Below are positions 3,610-36,963 of a stretch of DNA of 36,974 bases, piece by piece. Under the pieces are notes generated by a model. It saw nothing but the letters and a program-made list of their open reading frames with translations. It was not told the origin of the DNA and did no database searches. The stretch lies in assembly GCA_021813125.1 (NCBI GenBank), contig JAKALT010000010.1, positions 1-36,974 of the forward strand. Direction: 5' to 3'. A program made the position numbers and the translations under genes. Within the stretch, counting starts at the first letter, position 1, and every line of letters starts with the position of its first letter. Source of the stretch: a bacterium. Its GTDB lineage: Bacteria; Patescibacteriota; Microgenomatia; Curtissbacterales; GWA2-41-24.

Positions 3610-3641
3610 TATTTCCCGTAAAATTCTGTAAAATTTCCAAC

Positions 3642-3755
3642 GTGGTGTCTCGAGCGACCTGGTACCACTCCATCCCATTCCGAACTGGATAGTGAAACGG
3701 GTCAGCGGTGACAATAGTATATGGGCAACTGTATGCGAAGATAGCTCGATGCCAC
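3642..3755 (+). rRNA. 5S ribosomal RNA
   Basis: Contains 'ccatcccattccgaactgg' and 'cagcggtgacaatagtat'. Terminal stem GUGGUGUC (3642-3649) pairs with GAUGCCAC (3748-3755). Confidence 0.95.
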
Positions 3756-3764
3756 ATCAATTTA

Positions 3765-5777: not shown

Positions 5778-5861
5778 TGATTAAATGTAAGTAAAGTTTT
5801 TGGAGTTTGCAAGCGTTGGCCTTTTTTTATCCTTTGAAAACTGATACAATACATGCCATCA

Positions 5862-5908
5862 GATGTTAGATTCTAGATCTTGGACTTTAGATTTTAGATT
5901 CAAAATGT
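5862..5908. repeat. Degenerate heptanucleotide tract (NNTAGAT-like)
   Basis: GTTAGAT TCTAGAT CTTGGAC TTTAGAT TTTAGAT TCAAAAT. Confidence 0.75.
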
Positions 5909-5941
5909 CAGAAATTTTAAAGATTAAGGAAGTGATTATGG

Positions 5942-7210: not shown

Positions 7211-8653
7211 ATGAGGGTGTTATCGGAATTTATTTGTCAGCAGTGCGGTTACAAATCACCTCAATTTTTGGGCAAGTGCCCGGAGTGCGGTGAGTGGAAT
7301 AGCCTCGTCGAGTCAATAGATTCAACTGAAACTCCAAACTCCAAATTCCAAGCACCAAACTTGGGAGAAGTATTAATAAAGCTTTCGGACGTTAAATCTC
7401 AAAAGTTTGCCAGAATTCCAACAGGATTTTTAGAATTTGACAGGGTTTTAGGTGGTGGAATAGTTGCCGGTTCCATAGTTCTTATTTCGGGGGATCCGGG
7501 GATTGGCAAAAGCACGCTGCTTTTGGAAACGGCGATGAAAATAGTAGAAGTATCAAACGCAGAAAACGTTTCGACAAGTCGAAATGCAAAAGGGTCAAAA
7601 GTATCAAAGGTTGATGATAGAAAAGTTAAAACATCTGATACCTTTGATACTCGCGATACTTTTAGAACTTCTGTTTTATATGTTTCCGGTGAAGAATCGG
7701 CGCAACAGGTCAAAATCAGGGCAGATAGAATCGGCAAAATCCCCAATAACTTATATATTTTGCCGGAAACTGATGTGGATGTTGTGGTCGGGGTTTCGGA
7801 AAAACTTTCGCCAAAGCTTATGATTATCGATTCCATCCAAACACTTTTTTCAACCAGGCTTTCGGGCTCGGCTGGAAGTGTAGGGCAGCTAAGGGAGTGC
7901 TCGCAAATCCTGCAAAGGCATGCAAAGCGAACCAATACGCCGGTTTTTATTGTAGGGCATGTTACAAAAGAAGGCAGTATCGCCGGACCAAAGGTGTTGG
8001 AGCACCTGGTGGACGCAGTTTTAAATTTAGAAGGCGACGAAATGCACGCGTTTAGGATTTTAAGGTCTAATAAAAACAGGTTCGGATCGACTTTTGAAGT
8101 TGGGGTTTTTGAAATGCAGGATGTAGGAATGGTAGAGGTTGCTAACCCTTCACAAATTTTTCTGGCCCAGCGAATTGCCAAAAAAGCGGGAAGTGTGGTG
8201 ACTTCGACTGTTGCGGGGGGAAGACCGATTTTGGCGGAAGTCCAGGCACTTGCGACGCCTACGATTTTTGGAATTCCTGCAAGAAGAGTGACGGGTTTGG
8301 ACTTCTCCCGAATGCAGGTTGTTATCGCTGCAGTTTCTAGGGCGGCCAAGCTTGCAATGGGTAATTTGGATATTTATTTGAATGTGGCAGGAGGTTTGAA
8401 AATTACAGAACCTGCTTGCGACTTAGCGGCTGCTCTGGCTATTGTTTCGGCAGTTGATCAGAAACCTGTTCGCGATGGGATTTGTGCTTTTGGGGAGGTA
8501 GGTTTATTGGGCGAGCTCAGGTCCGTCGGCAACGTCAAAAACCGGATTGCCGAGGCAAAACGCTTAGGATTTTCCGATTTTGTAACTAGTGAAAAGTTTA
8601 AAACTCTAGAGGAAGCAGTTTCTTATGCTTTAGGGGGAACAAATGAGGCCTAA
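7211..8653 (+). CDS. radA: DNA repair protein RadA/Sms
   Basis: N-terminal C4 zinc motif CQQCGYKSPQFLGKCPECGEW, Walker A GDPGIGKST, LYVSGEES and a Lon-like C-terminal domain. Confidence 0.95.
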   Translation: MRVLSEFICQQCGYKSPQFLGKCPECGEWNSLVESIDSTETPNSKFQAPNLGEVLIKLSDVKSQKFARIPTGFLEFDRVLGGGIVAGSIVLISGDPGIGKSTLLLETAMKIVEVSNAENVSTSRNAKGSKVSKVDDRKVKTSDTFDTRDTFRTSVLYVSGEESAQQVKIRADRIGKIPNNLYILPETDVDVVVGVSEKLSPKLMIIDSIQTLFSTRLSGSAGSVGQLRECSQILQRHAKRTNTPVFIVGHVTKEGSIAGPKVLEHLVDAVLNLEGDEMHAFRILRSNKNRFGSTFEVGVFEMQDVGMVEVANPSQIFLAQRIAKKAGSVVTSTVAGGRPILAEVQALATPTIFGIPARRVTGLDFSRMQVVIAAVSRAAKLAMGNLDIYLNVAGGLKITEPACDLAAALAIVSAVDQKPVRDGICAFGEVGLLGELRSVGNVKNRIAEAKRLGFSDFVTSEKFKTLEEAVSYALGGTNEA

Positions 8654-10328: not shown

Positions 10329-10375
10329 AAGGTCAGGTCTTAGGCAAACATTTTCCCAACAAAGGCCTGACCTTT
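10329..10375. repeat. Palindromic REP-like element
   Basis: AAGGTCAGGTCTT...AAAGGCCTGACCTTTGTTAG. Confidence 0.8.
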
Positions 10376-17887: not shown

Positions 17888-17922
17888 TAAACTCCAAATT
17901 CCAAATTTCAAACTCCAAAGTT
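17884..17922. repeat. Degenerate heptanucleotide tract (AAANTCC)
   Basis: AAACTCC AAATTCC AAATTTC AAACTCC AAAGTTA. Confidence 0.75.
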
Positions 17923-17946
17923 AAAGGGCAAAACTTATCTTAGCTT

Positions 17947-17994
17947 AAGGTCAGGCCTTTTGCTTGGAATTGGCCGACGCTAAGGCCTGACCTT
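17947..17994. repeat. Palindromic REP-like element
   Basis: AAGGTCAGGCCTT...AAGGCCTGACCTT with interior 'tgcttggaattggccgacgct'. Confidence 0.85.
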
Positions 17995-19231: not shown

Positions 19232-19280
19232 AAGGTCAGGCCTTCTGCTTGGAATGGCGGATGCTAAGGCCTGACCTTTG
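19232..19280. repeat. Palindromic REP-like element (plus half-element AAAGGCCTGGCCTTT near 19303)
   Basis: AAGGTCAGGCCTTCTGCTTGGAATGGCGGATGCTAAGGCCTGACCTT; interior very close to those at 17947 and 31772. Confidence 0.87.
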
Positions 19281-19347
19281 TTAAGTCTCCAGTTTTACTT
19301 TCAAAGGCCTGGCCTTTTTCCTATTAGATCTACTATACTTTTTGGTA

Positions 19348-21423
19348 ATGAAGAAATACCTACCGGTTATTTTGGGCGTTTTTTCATTTTTACTGCCGCT
19401 TGGACTTTACCTTAAAACTTTATCGCCAACATATATTCCTGTTGACAGTGCCGAATTTACGCTCTGCATTAAATTTTGGGGACTTTGCCATCCGCCGGGC
19501 TTTCCGTTTTACATTTTTCTGGGGCATATTTTAACTTCTATTTTTGCATTTGGAAGTCTGATTTTTAGAGCCAATTTTCTTTCGGCTTTATATGCAGCCC
19601 TGACAGTTTTGGTTGTGTATTTGACTCTTCTTCGTGTTGGTGTAAAAAGCTCCCTGGCATTTTTGGTTTCAATGATCCTTGCGGTTTCTGCTGCTTTTTG
19701 GGAGTATTCGATTTCTGCCGATGTTTTTACTTTCGCAACATTTTTGGTTGCACTTTCTTTCCTTTTTGCTTTCTGGAATAAACCGTGGCCGGCATTTTTG
19801 GCATTAGGGTTTTCGGCTTCGCATTTTTACATCACCGTGATGCTTGCGCCAATTTTTGTATGGTATTTTTGGGGATTTAAGCCAAAAATACGCGATTTTG
19901 TCTTGGCAGTCTGCGTTTTTGCCTTGGGCTTTGTCGGCCAGGCAATGATGCTATTGCGGATGCAGCAGGATCCGGTTATCAACTGGGGACACGCCAAAGG
20001 GATTTCCGGTTATTTGTATTATCTAAGGCGCAAAGAGTTTGGTTCCATTTTCCTTATCAAAAACCCGGTCCTGACGTTTTCCTTGATTAAATACGCAAAA
20101 CACATTTATGTTTACATTTTGGATATTATTGTCGGGTTTGGGGTAGTTTTGCCCGTACTTGTGCCTTTGGGTTTGGTAAAGGAAGGTTTATGGAAGGAAA
20201 AGAAAGTTATTTTTCTTGTTTTCAGCTGGCTGACTGTAGTTTTGGTGCAGCTTTTTTTGCTTTCGACAATAGACCCGTTGGGGGCTGATAACCCCTTCCA
20301 AATTACAAAGTTTTACCTGGTTTCTTATATACCAATTCTTGTGCTGGTGGGGATGTCAACGCAAAAATTTGTTGACTGGTTTTTTGACGGCGACGGAACT
20401 TATGTCAATTTGCTTTTGGGGGCAGTTGTGGTTGTTTATCTAATGTCCAGTTTTAAATCGCATAACTTGAGCCAAAATTACTTCTCGGAGAAGATGGTAG
20501 AGGATGCCATGGACCAGCTGCCGCCGGGAAGCGTTGCTATAACCGTTTCCCATGTATTTTATTTCGGCGGTCTTTATGAGCAGAAGATTGACGGGAAGTA
20601 CGGGGGGATTACTCTTTTGTATTTCCCAAACGAATATAACCGGGACAACGAAAGTTACCATCCGGAACTTTTTTCCGGGAAGGTTGACGAGGGATTTGTT
20701 TCTAAGGTTAGTGATCAGAAGGAGCTAGGAAACGCAGAGAAGTATATCCTTTCCGTTTTAGCCAGAAACCCCGACCGTGATTTTTATATCTTACAGGGAA
20801 CGTTTGAAGAAGGGTTTTTTAAGTATCTGGATCCATATAAAGTGCCTTACGGTTTGTGGTGGAAAGTTACGAGAAGCCGAAATGAAAAGCCGGATTTGGG
20901 CAAGCTTGCCGGGCTCTTGGAAGGGTTGCGAAATAAAGATGTCAAATTCAACGATTTTGCTTTTAAACAACAGCAAATGGACACGATGCTTTATGCGGTT
21001 TCTTATAATTCGAGCGGTATTATCCTGGCTAGAAACGGTGATTATGACAAAGCTTTGGAGTTATTCAATAAAAGTTACGCGATTAAGCCGGATAATACTA
21101 ATGTCAAAAGCGAGATAGATTTGGTTGGGAAGATTAAAGATTTGGCAGGTCGCCAGACGGATTTGGTTGGCAAGAAAGATGCGGATACTTTGAATGAGCT
21201 TGGAAATAGTTTATTTACGCTCGGAAATTACAATGAGTGCGGTAGAGTTTATGCTGAAGCCTTGAAGATAGACCAGCGGGCTGTTTTCTACAATAATTTG
21301 GCTTCCTGCCAAGCTGCTGCCGGTAATTTGGGCGAGGCGCGCACTAATTACCAAAAGGCTCTTAGCATTGACCCGAACCTTAACTTGGCAAAGCAAGGAC
21401 TTGAGAATTTAGATTCTAGATGA
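19348..21423 (+). CDS. DUF2723-like membrane protein with C-terminal TPR repeats
   Basis: 'LSPTYIPVDSAEFTLCIKFWGLCHPPGFPFYIFLGHI' resembles the DUF2723 N-terminus; TPR-like C-terminus ('LNELGNSLFTLGNYNECGRVYAEALKID'). Confidence 0.8.
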   Translation: MKKYLPVILGVFSFLLPLGLYLKTLSPTYIPVDSAEFTLCIKFWGLCHPPGFPFYIFLGHILTSIFAFGSLIFRANFLSALYAALTVLVVYLTLLRVGVKSSLAFLVSMILAVSAAFWEYSISADVFTFATFLVALSFLFAFWNKPWPAFLALGFSASHFYITVMLAPIFVWYFWGFKPKIRDFVLAVCVFALGFVGQAMMLLRMQQDPVINWGHAKGISGYLYYLRRKEFGSIFLIKNPVLTFSLIKYAKHIYVYILDIIVGFGVVLPVLVPLGLVKEGLWKEKKVIFLVFSWLTVVLVQLFLLSTIDPLGADNPFQITKFYLVSYIPILVLVGMSTQKFVDWFFDGDGTYVNLLLGAVVVVYLMSSFKSHNLSQNYFSEKMVEDAMDQLPPGSVAITVSHVFYFGGLYEQKIDGKYGGITLLYFPNEYNRDNESYHPELFSGKVDEGFVSKVSDQKELGNAEKYILSVLARNPDRDFYILQGTFEEGFFKYLDPYKVPYGLWWKVTRSRNEKPDLGKLAGLLEGLRNKDVKFNDFAFKQQQMDTMLYAVSYNSSGIILARNGDYDKALELFNKSYAIKPDNTNVKSEIDLVGKIKDLAGRQTDLVGKKDADTLNELGNSLFTLGNYNECGRVYAEALKIDQRAVFYNNLASCQAAAGNLGEARTNYQKALSIDPNLNLAKQGLENLDSR

Positions 21424-21453
21424 TAGACTCTAGACTTTAGACTTTAGATTATT
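21412..21453. repeat. Degenerate heptanucleotide tract (NNNTAGA)
   Basis: ATTTAGA TTCTAGA TGATAGA CTCTAGA CTTTAGA CTTTAGA TTATTGA. Confidence 0.8.
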
Positions 21454-21810
21454 GATGGCGAATAATTTTGAAGATTTAATAGTTGGCGAAAATCTCACGA
21501 GTTAGTTCTTAGTATTTACAAAGCTACAAAAGACTTTCCGTCTCACGAGAAATACAGGTTAACGGATCAAGTTTGCAGATCAGCATCCTCTGTTGCCGCA
21601 AACATTGTTGAGGGTAACAGCAGGAAGCATTCAAAGGAGTATTTACAATTTATAAACACGGCTTATGCGTCTTTGGAAGAAACGAAATATCATTTACTTT
21701 TGGCGCGGGATTTAGGTTATCTTAAATCTAAAGATTATGAAGAGCTTATTGGTAAAGCAACAGAAATAAACAAGATGTTAAACTCTCTTAGAAAGTATTT
21801 AACCAGATAG
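21454..21810 (+). pseudogene. Four-helix-bundle protein (23S rRNA IVS protein / S23-like), frameshifted
   Basis: Frame 1 reads MANNFEDLIVGENLTS*. Adding one T at ~21483 gives ...FEDLIVWRKSHELVLSIYKATKDFPSHEKYRLTDQVCRSASSVAANIVEGNSRKHSKEYLQFINTAYASLEETKYHLLLARDLGYL..., a typical family sequence. Confidence 0.8.
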
Positions 21811-22915: not shown

Positions 22916-23021
22916 AAGGCCAGGCCTTTGCGCTGGCATTTTGCTTTGGGAGAAGTCAACCTACCTCGTACTCAAGGTCAGGTCTTTTTCCATGAATAGG
23001 CTTGGTCAAGGCCTGACCTTT
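22916..23021. repeat. Palindromic REP-like half-element (22916-22928) and full element (22973-23021)
   Basis: AAGGCCAGGCCTT, then AAGGTCAGGTCTT...AAGGCCTGACCTTTGTTAAG. Confidence 0.8.
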
Positions 23022-25432: not shown

Positions 25433-25463
25433 TTTTTAGCTTTTAAGGCCTGGCCTTGAAACG
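25433..25463. repeat. Short palindromic element adjoining the RAYT gene (3' side)
   Basis: TTTTTAGCTTTTAAGGCCTGGCCTTGAAACG. Confidence 0.8.
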
Positions 25464-25521
25464 TTATTTGGAGAAGATTATAGGGTTTGTGAGATTATTT
25501 TATTTTGCTGGAGAAAGTTTG

Positions 25522-26124
25522 TTAGGATTCGTGGGGAAATATTAAGTGGCTGATATTATCGAAGTATTCCTCTTGGGATTTCACGAACTCTTTATAGGAA
25601 TTTCGTGCCTCATCGAAAGTCCCGTTTTTGGTTTTGAACATAGAAATTACAAATTTGCTTTCTGTGAGATCATCTTCGATTTCTTCAAGATAAGTAGGGT
25701 AACTGCTCCACTTATATGATGGTAGTTTAGTGACAATTTTTGCCGGATTTAGGTGGATGTATCTGGAAAGGTGCATTAAGTACTCGTCGCGGTCTATGAT
25801 TTTGGCTTTAAAACGGTCTTGGAAAATATGCCCTACCTGGCTATATTTTTTATTGAAATACATAGAGTAGGCGGTATGAAGCCTTTGGATGAAGGTACTG
25901 ACCGGCTCCGGACCGTTTTGCCTAACGAGCAGGTGTATATGGTTTGGCATTAGGCAATAGGCGAGTATAGAAATATTATGCTTTTTTCTGTACTCCTTCA
26001 TCTTTTCCAGGTATCGTTTGTAATCTTTATCGGAAAGAAAAATGTTTTGCTTGCGGTTGCCGCGGTTAAAAACATGGTAGAAGCCGCCCTGAATGAAGTT
26101 TGATTGCTGGTTTCTGGTTGCCAT
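25522..26124 (-). mobile_element. REP-associated tyrosine transposase (RAYT, Y1_Tnp / IS200-like superfamily)
   Basis: 'GGFYHVFNRGNRKQNIF', HUH motif 'MPNHIHLLV', catalytic region 'HLSRYIHLNP', 'YKWSSYPTYL'. Flanked on both sides by the GGCCTGGCC palindrome. Confidence 0.9.
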
Positions 26125-26138
26125 AGAGCTATTATAGC

Positions 26139-26166
26139 ACTTTTAGCTTCCAAGGCCTGGCCTTGG
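26139..26166. repeat. Short palindromic element adjoining the RAYT gene (5' side)
   Basis: CTTTTAGCTTCCAAGGCCTGGCCTTGGG. Confidence 0.82.
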
Positions 26167-26168
26167 GC

Positions 26169-26855: not shown

Positions 26856-26950
26856 AAGGTCAGGCTTTTCAGCACGGGATTAGCCTTGGTTAAGGTCGGA
26901 CCTTTTGCTAACTTGCCCCTTTTAGCTTCCAAGGCCTGGCCTTGGAACGT
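26856..26950. repeat. Composite of palindromic elements
   Basis: AAGGTCAGGCTTTT...AAGGTCGGACCTT, then CTTTTAGCTTCCAAGGCCTGGCCTTGGAACG, nearly identical to the RAYT-flanking units. Confidence 0.75.
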
Positions 26951-29111: not shown

Positions 29112-29166
29112 AAGGTCAGGCCTTTAAGTTTTCCAAGGCCTGACCTTGGTTTAGCCTGACCTTAGG
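29112..29166. repeat. Palindromic REP-like element plus half-arm running into the upstream CDS
   Basis: AAGGTCAGGCCTTTAAGTTTTCCAAGGCCTGACCTT followed by TTAGCCTGACCTTAGG. Confidence 0.8.
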
Positions 29167-30106: not shown

Positions 30107-30148
30107 AAGGTCAGGCCTTGGAAAACTGAAAGGCCTGACCTTCGTTAA
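30107..30148. repeat. Palindromic REP-like element
   Basis: AAGGTCAGGCCTTGGAAAACTGAAAGGCCTGACCTTCGTTAAG. Confidence 0.85.
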
Positions 30149-31045: not shown

Positions 31046-31081
31046 AAGGTCAGGCCTTTAAGTTTTCTAAGGCCTGACCTT
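31046..31081. repeat. Palindromic REP-like element abutting the stop codon of the giant gene
   Basis: AAGGTCAGGCCTTTAAGTTTTCTAAGGCCTGACCTT, then TTA (TAA on the minus strand). Confidence 0.85.
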
Positions 31082-34000
31082 TACTGGGCGCTGCTAATTT
31101 GTTTCGTATTAACAATGAGCCAGTCGAAGGAAATTGGGGTTAGTGCCGGCGCGGTGCTGTCGACTGTTACCGTAAAGCCTTCAAAGTCGGACTTTGCCGA
31201 AACGTACAATTGGCGACCGCCGGTTGGAGTTGTCGGTGTAATCAGGATTTTGGCATTAGGTTCCAGTGCGGATGTAAAGACGGTGACCAGGTGCTGGTTT
31301 GCCGGTAATAATGCCGAGCCGACGGTCTTGGCGTTGGGATCGGAGGCATCGATGGTTATGCTCTTGGTCTCTACTTTTTCTGCCGTTATTATGCCTTGGA
31401 CGTTGAGGTTGCCGTGTTTGTCGAATGTTGCTTTGCCGCCGCCGATATCAACCAGAATACCGTTTTCCAGGTTGCCGGCAAACGGATCGTTTTGCAGGTA
31501 GAGGGTTGAACCTAAGACGTTTAACTGTTTGCCGTAGTCGATTATGAAAGTCCCATCCTGGCTAAATGTTCCGGCAACTTGAGTTTGGGCAAGTTGAGTG
31601 TTTCCAGAAACACTCAGAGTGTCAAGTGATAAGTGAGTAGTGGATAGTAGCTCGGTTAGCTTGTTTAGGGTGGCGGTAGTCTGGTCGATGATGGCTTCTC
31701 CGCTTGCGATGGCTGCCGATGTTGTGGCTTCTGCGGAACTTGAGGCTTCGGCTGAACCTGTCGCCTCACCCAAGGTCAGGCCTTCTGCTTGGGAACCGGC
31801 ATTGGCTAAGGCCTGACCTTCCGCCGGGACAGGAGCGGCTATTTGCTGACTGCTGACTGCTGACTGCTGACTGCTGGCCAGAATTTGGCCGACCTGTTTG
31901 GTGACTTCGTCGGCGACGAGTTTCTTTATTTGGTCGTTGTTCATGGTTGATGGTTCATGGTTAGTAGTTTGTGAGCTTGCTAAAGTACCGTCGGGGTTGG
32001 TGACCGTGATTAAGGCCAGGCCTTTTTGCCCGGAACCGGCAGACGCTAAGGCCTGGCCTTGAGCGTTGACAGCATTCATTGAGCCGTTTTGGGCAAGAGC
32101 AGAACCTAGGTACCAGCCGGGTTCGACGAAGACAGTGATGGTAGAGGTAGCAAAAGTATCAGGTGTATCAAAAGTATCAAAGGGTTCTAGGGCAATACCA
32201 ATGATTCTGCCTGCCTGGGTTGCTTTCATGCCCACACCGGGTGTAGAGGATGACGTAATCGGGTCGCCGGCTTTGATTGCGCCGTTTTCCAAAGATACTT
32301 TGGCAGGGACACGGCCGGCCAAGGCCAGTGGTTTGCCGCCGGCTTCCTGTGAATTCAAAGTGACGCCCGGAGCGGTTGAGATTATGCCCAGAAGGGTGTT
32401 CTGGTATGGCGAAGTAGATTTAATGACGTTCTGGGCGTTTGCGGGGTCAACGGCAACGATATCGCCTTCCGCAATTGAACTGTCGGCGGTTGGGAACTTT
32501 TCGGCCAAGTCGGCAGTGTGGCCGGTGTCGAAGGCATCGGCATAGACGGTGCCATTTACAGGGTTGGCAATTGAGCAGCTGCCGTTGTTGTTGACGCAGA
32601 TGTAGCCGTTGGTGACATTTAAGCTGGCGCCTGCGGCACTCAAAGTTTGGTTACCCTTCGAGTCAATCTTTATCAGCTCATTGCCCAGGGAATCTGTTAT
32701 CGAAAGCTTGTTGGTGCCTGCATTGTCGCCTAGAGCAACTGATAGATTTTGGTTTGCCGGAGCGGCAATTGAGCTTGCAGTCAGTTTGCCTGTAACAGTT
32801 AGGTTACCTGCCGCAGTTATGTTCTGGGCGGTAACATTGCCTGTTGCGTCGACCCCAAATTGTCCGCCGGCAACAGAAAGCGTACCGGCTGTTGCGACGT
32901 TCCCAAGTGCATCGATTGTAGTATTGCCGCCGCCCGCTGTTATTGCACCTGCGGTAATTAGGTTTCCGCCAGCATCAATTGTCATGCTGCCGGAAGCGGT
33001 CGAGAAACTCTTGGCGTTCAGGTTAAGGTCAGCATACTGAGTTCTTGCATCCGGACGCATCTCGGTTCCGACCTGCATTGTTATTTGGCCTTGGCCTGGG
33101 CCACTGAAGGCGCTTAAGGCTTTACCGATTGTTGTGCCAAACCTTGGGTCTGCCTTCATAGCAACGCCCGGAGTGGAGGAAGCAGTCAGCAGATCGCCGA
33201 TGGCAATCGGGCCGTTTTCGTCATTGACGTTAACAGGGACACGTCCGGCAAGTGCCATGCGGACGGACTGGCCGTTGTCAGTCCCATACGTTTGGGCAGG
33301 GTTTGTGGAAACGACACCTATTAGGCTTTGGTCATAGGAAGTTGTTGACTTCTGGACGGTTACAGGCTGGGCCGAGTTTAGGCTCAAGACATCACCCGGC
33401 ATCGGTGCGGTTCCGGCATACGGTACCCATTCGGCCAAGTCGAAGGTGTCCGAGCCTCCTGCGGTTGCAGAATTAACCGAAACAACCCTCCAGGCGCCAT
33501 TGATGTAAGCAACAGTGTAGCTTTCGGTAGCCGTTGTACCCAGCGTAGAATTTGCAAGTGTGCTAACGGTGCTTCCGTTTATATTGACAGTTATTGTTAG
33601 GGTACCGGCATTACAACCGCTGTTTGTGGCTTTTGTGACTACATAGGCGAAGGTCCCTTCCGTATTTGGTATTCCTGTAATATTAAAAGTCCTTGTACCG
33701 TTTGTGCTACAGTTTGCGGTGCCACCTGCAGTTGCTGTTGATTGAATGTAATAAGCCAGACTGCCACCTGAAATTGTCGTTGTACCTGCGCCGGGATCTG
33801 TTACTGCCGTAGTAGTAACATTTCCGTTCCAGGCACCGTTTCCGGTTGAGATGGCGTAGTTAGTTGTTGACCCGGTGACTGCACCAATAAGCAAGCCGTA
33901 GTTGGTGGTTCCTGCCCCCGAAATGGCGCCGATGTTGATTCCGTAGTTAGTTGTAGCGGTTGAGGTGTTTGCACCAATGGTCATGCCGTACGAGGTTGTG

Positions 34001-36963
34001 CCTGCGCCGGAAATGGCACCTAAGTTGATGCCGCCGAAAGTGGCGCTGGCAGCACCCGCGATTGTGCTTGTTGCGTACTGCCAACCTACGCCTGAACTTC
34101 CTGCGGTAATGGCGTTTCCGAAGATACCATAATTATTGTCGGCTCCCGAGGCTACTGTATAGGCACCATAGGCATTGCTTAGACCACCGGTGTCGCCTGT
34201 TGCCTTGAAGTAGCCGCCGTAGGTATTCGGTCTTGTTTTAGTGCCGGTATCAGGAGAGCCTGTAATGCTTGATATGCCACTTACACCAACTGCGAGGTCG
34301 TTAGCACCTACACTTGGCGTGAAGTTGTCGGCGCCTGTCTTGGTGACTAAGTTATATGAGCCGTAATAGTTAAATGACCGGCTGTTTGTGGCAGTAGTGT
34401 TGGTGCTGGTTGCTGTAAATGAATTGTAAATACCATATTCTGTGTGGGTGACATCGGAAAGTGAAGAGTCTGTGTAATTGAGGTTGAGGCCGTAGGCGTT
34501 AACAGCGCTGTTGACGGTATTTATTTGTAGTGTGCCGTTGGCTTGGGTGTTGGTGGTTGTTGAGGCATCGATTAAGACGTTGTCGCCTGCAGCCAGGACA
34601 TTCTTGATATTGCCGGCTGCTGTGTAGAGGGCGTAGTTATTGTTGGCGCCGGCGGCAGTTGAGTAAACGCCGTAAGCAGTGGTGGTGCCGGCTGTTGCTC
34701 CGGTTGCATTGAAATAGCCACCATAAGTGTTCCTGATTCCGGCAAGACCTGAATCGGTGTTGATATTTGATGCATTAACATAGGCACCGTAAATGTTTTG
34801 TGTTCCTGATCCGAATGCTACGAAATTGTCCGCTGCATTAAGGCTAATCGAACTATAAATGTTGTAGTAATTGGTTGGGTTGGTGTTCCCGGCAACATGG
34901 CTTGTGTTGTTGGTGAAAGCGGAATATATGCCATATTGATCCTCAACGCTATTACCTGTGGAGGTGTAATTAAAGCTGGCGCCGGTGTTGCCGTCAGTTA
35001 ACGATTTGCTGTTGACATAGAGGCTTGCAGTTGTTGTTGTAGTGTTGGTGCCAATTGCCGTGGTGTTGTCTATGGTGACAAAGTCTGTTACACCAAGGAT
35101 GTTTTTGATTTTACCTGCCGTGGTGTAGAGGGCGTAGTTTGAAGTGGCTGTTGTTGCCGATGCGACTATGCCGTAATTGTTGGTTGCCCCCGAAACGTTG
35201 CCTGTAAAGATTCCGTAATTAGCAGTTGTTGCGGATGAAATGGCTTCGACGCTTATGCCGAAGTTGTTGTCGCCGCCGGAGGCAGTTGCAGCTAGGCCAT
35301 AAGCGTTTCCGGTGCCGGAAGTTGTGCCGACTCCCTTAAAGTAACCGCCGTAGCTGTTGGCGGATGAGCCGCCGCCCGCGCTTTCGGTTGCCAGGCTGTA
35401 GACACCATAAAGGTTTTTGGTGCCGGTGGTGGCTGCTGCAGACTGGGCGAGAGTGATGTAGCTTCCATATATAGTATCTGCTGTTGTGGAGGAAGAAGTG
35501 ACTGTTGAAAAGTTTCCGAAGGCGACTTTTGCAGCGTTGCCGGAAAGGGCGACAGAAGTATAGTTGCCGTAGTCGGTGTTGGTATTGGCGGTGGAATCCG
35601 TTGCTGCCATATAAGTGCCATAGCCTGTGACACCGTTGCCGGTGAAGCCAGGGTTAAGGCTTAAGAGTGATGCACCCGAGCCAATTGCCGAAGTTAGCTT
35701 AACCAGTGCGTTGGTGGTGATGCCTGTTGAAGCCGGGCCGGTAAGACTCATGAGAATTCCAGTTGTCAGATTTGCACCGCTAAATGTCCAGAGGTTTTGG
35801 GTGTTGGCCGTTGAAGAGCTGAATGTTGTGGTATTTGTGAGCATGTCCAGTGATAGATTAGTGTTTGGTGCTGCGATTTGGTCCCACCTGAGGCCGCTGG
35901 CACAGCCGGTACAGGAAGAAACAGTTAGCGCGCCGTTAACGAATGTAGCACCATTGAAGTAGCCGGCATAGTTGGTTGAAGCCCCGCTGGCAGATCCGTA
36001 GACGCCATAAGCTGTAGATGTTCCATAAGTATCACCGGTTGCCGAGAAGTAACCGCCGTAGGTATTCTTGGTAACAGTACCGGCACCACCGTTAGTATTT
36101 GAAGCAATACCGTAAGTTGCAAAGAGGTTGCTGGTTGCAGAGGAATTATCTGCACCGGTTTTAGTGAGGGCGCTGTAGTTGCCGTAAATACTTTGAGTAC
36201 CGGAAGTTAAGGCAGTTGATGAAGCCCAGTTGTTGTAGATGCCATACTGGGTTGCGCCGGCACTCTGGGTATTGGAGGTTGTGATTGCCAAGACTCCACC
36301 CGTAGTAGTACTGGCAGTCGTTGAGGCGTCTATATATATTTGATCACCTGCCGACAAGACATTTCTAATGTTGCCGGCGGAAGTGTAAAGGGCGTAGTTA
36401 CTAGCGGCCGAAGTGACTGTTGAGAAGATTCCGTAGTTAGTGGTACCACCGCTGGCGGCAGTAGCGTAAAGGCCGGTGGCGATGTCACCGTTTGTGGCAG
36501 AGGCGTAAGCGCCGTAAGTGCTGGCGGTACCGTTGGTGTCACCGGTTGCGGAGAAGACGCCTGCATAGGTTGTATGGGTGCCGAAGTTACCCGAACCGGT
36601 ATTGGAAGCGCTTCCATAGACTCCGTAGCTGGTAACCGTGCCGCCGGTGTCACTACCGGTTTTGGTAACGGCAGTGTAGTCGCCGTAATAGAACGGAGTG
36701 GTGGATGCAACGGCACCGGTTGCAGTGTAGGTGTTGTAGACGCCGTATTGGCTGGTGTTACCAATGTTAGAGGTGCGGGATATTACGGATAGGACGCCTG
36801 CTGTGCCGGTATTGACGGTTGTTGAAGCGTCGATAGCGACGTTGTCAGAAGCACCAAGGACGTTTTTAATGTTGCCGTTTGCTGTATATAAGGCGTAGTT
36901 TTTGGAAGCGGAGGCAACGTTTCCGTAGATGGCAAAGTTATTGGTAGCTCCAGAGGCGGCCAA
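31081..36963 (-). CDS. Giant repeat-rich tail-fibre/adhesin-like surface protein (5' end outside the window)
   Basis: 1,960-aa open frame reaching the window edge. Recurrent 'YGGYFSATGDT..GTSTAYGVY..ASGA..NYALYTAAGNIKNVLAAGDN' units and two copies of a 'DLAE..P..GD(V/I)...STPGV.MKA' domain. Confidence 0.85.
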   Translation of the reverse strand: MAASGATNNFAIYGNVASASKNYALYTANGNIKNVLGASDNVAIDASTTVNTGTAGVLSVISRTSNIGNTSQYGVYNTYTATGAVASTTPFYYGDYTAVTKTGSDTGGTVTSYGVYGSASNTGSGNFGTHTTYAGVFSATGDTNGTASTYGAYASATNGDIATGLYATAASGGTTNYGIFSTVTSAASNYALYTSAGNIRNVLSAGDQIYIDASTTASTTTGGVLAITTSNTQSAGATQYGIYNNWASSTALTSGTQSIYGNYSALTKTGADNSSATSNLFATYGIASNTNGGAGTVTKNTYGGYFSATGDTYGTSTAYGVYGSASGASTNYAGYFNGATFVNGALTVSSCTGCASGLRWDQIAAPNTNLSLDMLTNTTTFSSSTANTQNLWTFSGANLTTGILMSLTGPASTGITTNALVKLTSAIGSGASLLSLNPGFTGNGVTGYGTYMAATDSTANTNTDYGNYTSVALSGNAAKVAFGNFSTVTSSSTTADTIYGSYITLAQSAAATTGTKNLYGVYSLATESAGGGSSANSYGGYFKGVGTTSGTGNAYGLAATASGGDNNFGISVEAISSATTANYGIFTGNVSGATNNYGIVASATTATSNYALYTTAGKIKNILGVTDFVTIDNTTAIGTNTTTTTASLYVNSKSLTDGNTGASFNYTSTGNSVEDQYGIYSAFTNNTSHVAGNTNPTNYYNIYSSISLNAADNFVAFGSGTQNIYGAYVNASNINTDSGLAGIRNTYGGYFNATGATAGTTTAYGVYSTAAGANNNYALYTAAGNIKNVLAAGDNVLIDASTTTNTQANGTLQINTVNSAVNAYGLNLNYTDSSLSDVTHTEYGIYNSFTATSTNTTATNSRSFNYYGSYNLVTKTGADNFTPSVGANDLAVGVSGISSITGSPDTGTKTRPNTYGGYFKATGDTGGLSNAYGAYTVASGADNNYGIFGNAITAGSSGVGWQYATSTIAGAASATFGGINLGAISGAGTTSYGMTIGANTSTATTNYGINIGAISGAGTTNYGLLIGAVTGSTTNYAISTGNGAWNGNVTTTAVTDPGAGTTTISGGSLAYYIQSTATAGGTANCSTNGTRTFNITGIPNTEGTFAYVVTKATNSGCNAGTLTITVNINGSTVSTLANSTLGTTATESYTVAYINGAWRVVSVNSATAGGSDTFDLAEWVPYAGTAPMPGDVLSLNSAQPVTVQKSTTSYDQSLIGVVSTNPAQTYGTDNGQSVRMALAGRVPVNVNDENGPIAIGDLLTASSTPGVAMKADPRFGTTIGKALSAFSGPGQGQITMQVGTEMRPDARTQYADLNLNAKSFSTASGSMTIDAGGNLITAGAITAGGGNTTIDALGNVATAGTLSVAGGQFGVDATGNVTAQNITAAGNLTVTGKLTASSIAAPANQNLSVALGDNAGTNKLSITDSLGNELIKIDSKGNQTLSAAGASLNVTNGYICVNNNGSCSIANPVNGTVYADAFDTGHTADLAEKFPTADSSIAEGDIVAVDPANAQNVIKSTSPYQNTLLGIISTAPGVTLNSQEAGGKPLALAGRVPAKVSLENGAIKAGDPITSSSTPGVGMKATQAGRIIGIALEPFDTFDTPDTFATSTITVFVEPGWYLGSALAQNGSMNAVNAQGQALASAGSGQKGLALITVTNPDGTLASSQTTNHEPSTMNNDQIKKLVADEVTKQVGQILASSQQSAVSSQQIAAPVPAEGQALANAGSQAEGLTLGEATGSAEASSSAEATTSAAIASGEAIIDQTTATLNKLTELLSTTHLSLDTLSVSGNTQLAQTQVAGTFSQDGTFIIDYGKQLNVLGSTLYLQNDPFAGNLENGILVDIGGGKATFDKHGNLNVQGIITAEKVETKSITIDASDPNAKTVGSALLPANQHLVTVFTSALEPNAKILITPTTPTGGRQLYVSAKSDFEGFTVTVDSTAPALTPISFDWLIVNTKQISSAQ
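31772..31820. repeat. Palindromic REP-like element inside the giant CDS, in-frame
   Basis: AAGGTCAGGCCTTCTGCTTGGGAACCGGCATTGGCTAAGGCCTGACCTT, translated on the minus strand as EGQALANAGSQAEGLTL. Confidence 0.88.
31843..31878. repeat. Heptanucleotide tandem repeat (GCTGACT)n within the giant CDS
   Basis: GCTGACT x4 then GCTGGCC; encodes the 7-residue periodic peptide SSQQSAV-SSQQ. Confidence 0.85.
32012..32060. repeat. Second palindromic REP-like element inside the giant CDS, in-frame
   Basis: AAGGCCAGGCCTTTTTGCCCGGAACCGGCAGACGCTAAGGCCTGGCCTT, translated as QGQALASAGSGQKGLAL. Confidence 0.87.

Follow-up and report, generated by a model that had tools for sequence, protein, structure and literature searches.

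In the 1.04-Mb genome of an uncultured bacterium of the Curtissbacteria (CPR), a resident single-copy gene for a RAYT-fold transposase lies between two direct copies of the palindrome CTTTTAGCYTYYAAGGCCTGGCCTTG, and inverted pairs of a 13-nt core shared with this palindrome are dispersed over the same genome in REPIN architecture. The locus is probably of the REPtron/TIRtron type with a family of non-autonomous passengers, and the approximately 75 dispersed pairs look like miniature mobile passengers of the RAYT. The overall reading given in the initial annotation of the window (the whole stretch of 36,974 nt analyzed) was supported, with the amendments described below. The nearest named relatives of the source genome (G000) are the Curtissbacteria MFBV01000037 and WY3.bin73, in line with the CPR host presumed in that annotation; all named relatives are Curtissbacteria or other Patescibacteria.

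The two units initially quoted as flanking the Y1 ORF were both found on the + strand, and the third, near-identical one was located 753 nt off, also on the + strand (Table 1). The tagged 27-nt unit CTTTTAGCYTYYAAGGCCWGGCCTTGR occurs in eight copies in the genome, three of them within 1.5 kb around the RAYT gene. Because only eight copies of the full 27-nt unit are present in 1.04 Mb, the probability of finding one at ≤150 bp on both sides of the gene amounts to ~1e-6, and a chance similarity of the flanks, named initially as the outcome that would speak against the proposed unit, does not account for the bracketing. No second Y1_Tnp gene is encoded in the genome. The TATAAT hexamer is positioned six bases ahead of the RAYT start codon.

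Table 1. Features of the RAYT locus and core repeats in the window.
Feature	Position	Strand	Basis
RAYT-like Y1 transposase, 200 aa (P0001)	25522..26124	-	PF01797 Y1_Tnp, 1.4e-17
Flanking palindrome TTTTTAGCTTTTAAGGCCTGGCCTTGAAACG, located downstream of the RAYT stop codon, with tag TTTTTAGC and 9-bp hairpin	25433..25463	+	Same place in G009 and G014
Flanking palindrome CTTTTAGCTTCCAAGGCCTGGCCTTGGG, located upstream of the RAYT start and directly oriented, with tag CTTTTAGC and 7-bp hairpin	26140..26167	+	Same place in G009 and G014
Third, single copy of tagged palindrome CTTTTAGCTTCCAAGGCCTGGCCTTGGAACG, perfect 9-bp stem, z -4.4	26919..26949	+	Sequence and fold
TATAAT, likely -10 box of leaderless RAYT transcript	26131..26136	-	Inferred from sequence read
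REPIN-like inverted pair of core in G.T wobble form with 20-nt spacer	10329..10374		Core search, fold
REPIN-like inverted pair, spacer 22 nt	17947..17994		Core search, fold
REPIN-like inverted pair, spacer 21 nt	19232..19278		Core search, fold
Single core AAGGCCTGGCCTT	19304..19316		Core search
Single core AAGGCCAGGCCTT	22916..22928		Core search
REPIN-like inverted pair in wobble form with 21-nt spacer	22974..23020		Core search
Probable degenerate inverted pair (AAGGTCAGGCTTT / AAGGTCGGACCTT)	26856..26904		Sequence read
Short inverted pair, conserved 10-nt spacer TAAGTTTTCC	29112..29147		Core search, fold
Short inverted pair, spacer GGAAAACTGA, opposite orientation	30107..30142		Core search
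Short inverted pair, spacer TAAGTTTTCT	31046..31081		Core search
REPIN-like inverted pair within 1960-aa ORF 31081-36963	31772..31820		Core search, fold
REPIN-like inverted pair within 1960-aa ORF 31081-36963	32012..32060		Core search

Elsewhere in the window, a 23S rRNA gene ends at position 150 and a 5S rRNA gene follows 3.5 kb further at 3641-3757; since a 609-aa minus-strand ORF lies between them, the two are unlinked. Low-complexity direct repeats, AGATTTTAGATTCT-like and AAACTCCAAATTCC-like, were observed between genes at 5861-5913, 7329-7362, 17889-17936, and 21404-21456.

The gene product, P0001, contains the motifs NHIH (residues 61-64), FQ (101-102), YIHLNP with the putative catalytic Tyr122, and SS; H62, H64, Y122, and N126 are unchanged across 54 relatives. 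With HUH and Y---NP motifs in a Y1_Tnp fold, it belongs to the RAYT/TnpAREP class 2 TnpAY1 proteins. Judged by motif alone, it falls into TnpAY1 subclass 2.1, for which NH[VYF]H, FQ, Y[IV]HLNP, and SS have been described (PMC6006769); many members of that subclass differ by a long C-terminal HTH domain, whereas P0001 has only 200 residues. The NF047646 model (REP_Tyr_transpos) scored the protein at 71 bits, under its cut-off of 80, which makes it related but outside the equivalog. An alignment-based AlphaFold model with a pLDDT of 91 was used instead of a single-sequence fold, which gave a pLDDT of 35. Among the solved structures of the PDB, this model is most similar to 4er8, in which the E. 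coli RAYT is complexed with a REP hairpin (E 9e-9); IS200/IS605 transposases come next. A phmmer search of the protein against PDB sequences yielded no match.

Orthologues from G009 (79% identity) and G014 (66%) form one clade with the RAYT of G000 (support 100/99). Both are bracketed on either side by the tagged palindrome TTTCAAGGCCAGGCCTTGRARGCTAAAA in direct orientation, and in all three genomes the RAYT precedes the same O-antigen-ligase gene. The bracketing is thus conserved in three genomes of two genera, and the presence of a single Y1_Tnp gene bracketed at three orthologous loci bears out the initial proposal of a resident RAYT. An alternative is that the unit at 25433-26166 is an IS200-like insertion sequence with the two same-strand hairpins as its left and right ends. 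The direct orientation of the hairpins on one strand indeed resembles IS200/IS605 ends, and the corresponding position ahead of the O-antigen ligase is taken in G011 by a RAYT from another deep clade, which is bracketed by AAGGTCAGACCTT. However, the unit is present in a single copy per genome, the orthologues keep the same neighbor in three genomes, YIHLNP is the motif of the TnpAREP and not of the IS200 class, and the NF033573 model scored only 23.6 bits versus a cut-off of 55. Neither the multiple near-identical copies nor the IS200-class tyrosine motif expected of IS200/IS605 elements were found, and this alternative appears very unlikely.

The other-clade RAYT of G011 (L079 / L283, G011:C43) has a palindrome of another sequence that shares the frame, as would result from a replacement or from repeated capture of the site. 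An identical 1152-nt RAYT unit in G011 and G046 was considered as a case of horizontal transfer and rejected: the two contig ends overlap over 2271 nt at 99.9% identity, so that one genome is split between two bins. The placement of L284 (G046:C12) and L283 (G011:C43) in different families reflects a binning error in one of these genomes.

The core was mapped over all contigs of G000, and AAGGYCWGRYCTT gave 108 forward matches genome-wide versus 0 for a reversed-pattern control. The related longer palindromes that had been noted initially are real but are not copies of the gene-flanking unit; each of the nine examples in the window consists of two inverted copies of the 13-nt core AAGGYCWGRCCTT with a spacer of 10 or 20-23 nt. 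This core is common to the doublets and the RAYT-flanking palindromes, and the extra tag TTTTAGCYTYY of the gene-flanking unit is missing from the doublets. A relaxed search, which demands complementarity, retrieved 77 inverted pairs in G000 and 78 in its congener G009. The arm starts are mostly 33-36 nt apart, with a minor class at 23 nt (spacer GGAAAACTGA), and the spacers are semi-conserved in recognizable subfamilies, e.g. TCTC-AAGGTCAGGTCTT-AGGCTNAGAATATCCCAACA-AAGGCCTGACCTT-TGTTAA. In each of the two genomes, 63 doublets are intergenic, with intergenic DNA accounting for only 11% and 8%, respectively, by a crude gene call; some are located inside genes. The two doublets within the 1960-aa ORF leave it unbroken and are absent at the syntenic place in the congener.

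A preferentially intergenic location and strong single-strand folds (z values down to -6 for doublets) would also be expected if the hairpins were only bidirectional terminators or RNA-processing hairpins that share their sequence by chance. This explanation is hardly tenable in view of the missing T run after the hairpins, the lack of an excess between convergent genes (9/62 doublets versus 44/375 gaps), and the conservation of a sequence, AAGGNCAGGCCTT, which is more than a stem. An Rfam search at the repeats retrieved no family.

As the relaxed search itself demands complementarity, covariation of the arms was counted separately with a pattern in which both arms were fixed beforehand except for one free base each. 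The free position was Watson-Crick matched in 63 of 68 doublets (TA 23, CG 22, GC 17, AT 1), and arm pairing exceeded that in all 500 re-pairings. Among 32 one-to-one orthologous sites of G000 and G009, 21 double compensatory changes that keep the pair were identified. The ability of the two arms of a doublet to pair is therefore maintained. The doublets show the properties of REPINs: an inverted arrangement, a variable spacer of set length, a pairing capacity for one hairpin, and compensatory changes. Syntenic sites, defined by neighboring orthologues in G009, were assigned for 74 of the 77 pairs in G000; 44 are occupied in both congeners and 30 are empty in G009, through gain or through loss, which two genomes with no outgroup do not separate. 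Several of the empty intergenic regions are 50-130 nt shorter; insertion boundaries and target sites were sought at the empty sites and were not definable there owing to excessive divergence of the congener. The distribution of doublets along the chromosome is strongly clustered, with 50 of 78 in 160 kb of G009 (C2:480000-640000; variance/mean 5.8 in 20-kb bins, the G009 C1 contig in this count including 72 kb of N) and clusters on contigs C28, C18, C15, and C5 of G000. Such clustering is not predicted by a model of random insertion. A replication-strand bias of G.T wobble doublets was suggestive in G000 and absent in G009, and was dropped.

These data bear on a further explanation, in which the palindromes serve the cell as binding or structural sites (hairpins for nucleoid, replication, uptake, or RNA stability), spread or kept for a function of their own, and the Y1 gene was merely inserted beside them or targets them. 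The 44 sites occupied in both congeners, the clustering, and the double changes, which look like selection on structure, are in accordance with it, as are the cores in two genomes with no Y1_Tnp (G116 and G066, see below). Compensatory change has, however, also been described for REPINs (PMC3116915), and the gene-bracketing copies are conserved along with the gene in three genomes of two genera. Moreover, different RAYT loci have different palindromes, which is unexpected of a shared cellular site, and only 0-8 copies are found in family members that lack this RAYT clade. Though less remote than the insertion sequence or the terminators, a purely cellular origin is unlikely.

The core was counted 99 and 101 times in the two genomes of genus g1 (G000 and G009), 12 times in G014 with the 66% identical RAYT, and 0-8 times in the 12 remaining family members, so that copy number tracks the presence of this RAYT clade, as the check proposed initially had asked. 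Among 280 genomes of the class, 57 contain an AAGGN5CCTT inverted pair and 190 a Y1_Tnp protein; all but one of the 57 with a pair also encode Y1_Tnp (56 genomes; Fisher p 6e-10, with all Y1 proteins counted and phylogeny uncorrected). The objection that the palindromes might be abundant in genomes without any RAYT thus largely fails; the part of it that stands concerns family f30, in which no Y1_Tnp was detectable in G116 (10 cores) and G066 (two copies, one pair). These cores represent orphan repeats or reflect incomplete bins. In G085, from another family, 65 cores were found, many paired at 35-36 nt, and a Y1 gene (C4:537-776) sits between AAGGCCTGGCCTT copies at C4:235 and C4:814; the complete arrangement recurs in this genome.

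In a comparison of the left and right 200-nt flanks of 106 RAYT loci, mostly from CPR, a shared segment with a score of at least 13 was present at 78 loci versus 1.5% of mismatched flank pairs. The segments are direct at 41 loci, inverted at 21, and undecided at 16, and the bracketing palindrome differs from locus to locus. A smooth coevolution of palindrome and RAYT was rejected: palindrome similarity rises above background only at >~60% protein identity, and a graded code is therefore unsupported.

The system is of a known kind (REPtron/REPIN) and differs by the absence of GTAG, by direct flanks, and by subclass 2.1 motifs. From the REPtron-like label of the initial annotation, the bracketing of the gene by a genome-repeated palindrome was confirmed; a GTAG-type REP is missing, the flanks are direct, and the motifs are those of a subclass regarded as REP-less. 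The sequence 5' GT[AG]G is not present at the hairpin foot, where the flanking copies have TTTTAGC and the doublets have no common tag. With Pseudomonas REPINs and REPtrons, the system shares the inverted arrangement of REP doublets around a less conserved spacer, compensatory changes, an extragenic location, and a single-copy RAYT (Bertels and Rainey 2011, PMC3116915); those units are based on 16-mers at a distance of 71 nt, whereas here the arms have 13 nt, the total length is 36-50 nt, and GTAG is lacking. The E. coli TnpAREP is the best structural match and has the HUH-Y core and flanking hairpins in common with P0001 (4ER8; PMC8266576), but sequence identity is 18%, DHLH/WE/YIHYNP are replaced by NHIH/FQ/YIHLNP, and the palindromes described here are perfect, odd, and without a bulge.

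Closer parallels exist to TIRtrons, in which a Y1 gene is flanked by GTAG-less repeats, some of them self-complementary, and members of some TIR families are scattered singly, as dimers, or in groups (Di Nocera et al. 2013, PMC3733652). Most TIRYTs belong to subclass 2.1, and Quentin et al. (2018, PMC6006769) suggested that the two groups, subclass 2.1 and the TIRYTs of Di Nocera et al., correspond to each other. They reported the absence of REP-like sequences near subclass 2.1 genes, a rule from which the present locus departs. TIRtron flanks are inverted, many with GGGGWSAS, whereas the flanks of this clade are direct AAGGCCWGGCCTT copies with a TTTTAGC tag and no GGGGWSAS; the 21 inverted cases are among other CPR loci. 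The abstract of PMC3733652 calls its TIR families moderately abundant; here, ~75 covarying doublets are present. TIRtron is a closer label than proteobacterial REPtron, and the comparison supports a system that works like a REPtron with REPINs and is closest to TIRtrons, minus their inverted flanks.

In related systems, TnpAREP proteins are established to recognize hairpins in single-stranded DNA and to cut them, and the moving unit is the REPIN, an inverted doublet marked as such by compensatory changes and excision traces (PMC8266576, PMC3116915). From the anatomy of the present system, we infer that the HUH/Y1 protein binds the hairpin formed by the AAGGYCWGRCCTT palindrome in single-stranded DNA, that Tyr122 would cleave near this hairpin with subsequent rejoining of the strands, and that core doublets (REPIN-like, ~36-50 nt) may have been copied or moved over time into intergenic sites. 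The gene itself would stay put as a resident, vertically kept single copy between two tagged palindromes. As the upstream palindrome overlaps the RAYT promoter region about where the -35 box would be, self-repression by the protein is plausible. Observed directly are the bracketing and its conservation in three loci, the RAYT fold, the dispersed doublets with their arm covariation, the occupancy differences between congeners, and the tracking of core number with RAYT presence; binding, cleavage, mobilization, and autoregulation would be activities of the predicted enzyme. A RAYT-dependent replication of the doublets is suggested by association. The chief problem within this model is posed by the TTTTAGC tag of the gene-bracketing copies, which the doublets do not have: if the tag were essential, the doublets would not be substrates.

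REPIN populations had been described in larger proteobacterial genomes, and a literature search, with most subscription papers and preprints outside its range, found no paper that ties RAYT or REP to CPR. The occurrence of REPIN doublets together with a subclass 2.1 RAYT in a 1-Mb CPR genome implies that REPIN-type passengers survive strong genome reduction and that GTAG is dispensable. With 78 bracketed loci of differing palindromes, hairpin recognition by RAYTs becomes directly testable with synthetic oligonucleotides. More tentatively, the RAYTs of CPR bacteria may form a large radiation, so far undescribed, within the supposedly REP-less subclass. Each RAYT would have a palindrome of its own that lacks GTAG and is built on an AAGG-N5-CCTT or related frame, with a center that changes with the enzyme; Curtissbacteria g1 and the G085 family would be lineages in which the palindrome has expanded into full REPIN populations with arms of 13 nt. 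If this radiation is true, dozens of enzyme/hairpin pairs would be available in nature for deciphering the hairpin recognition code.
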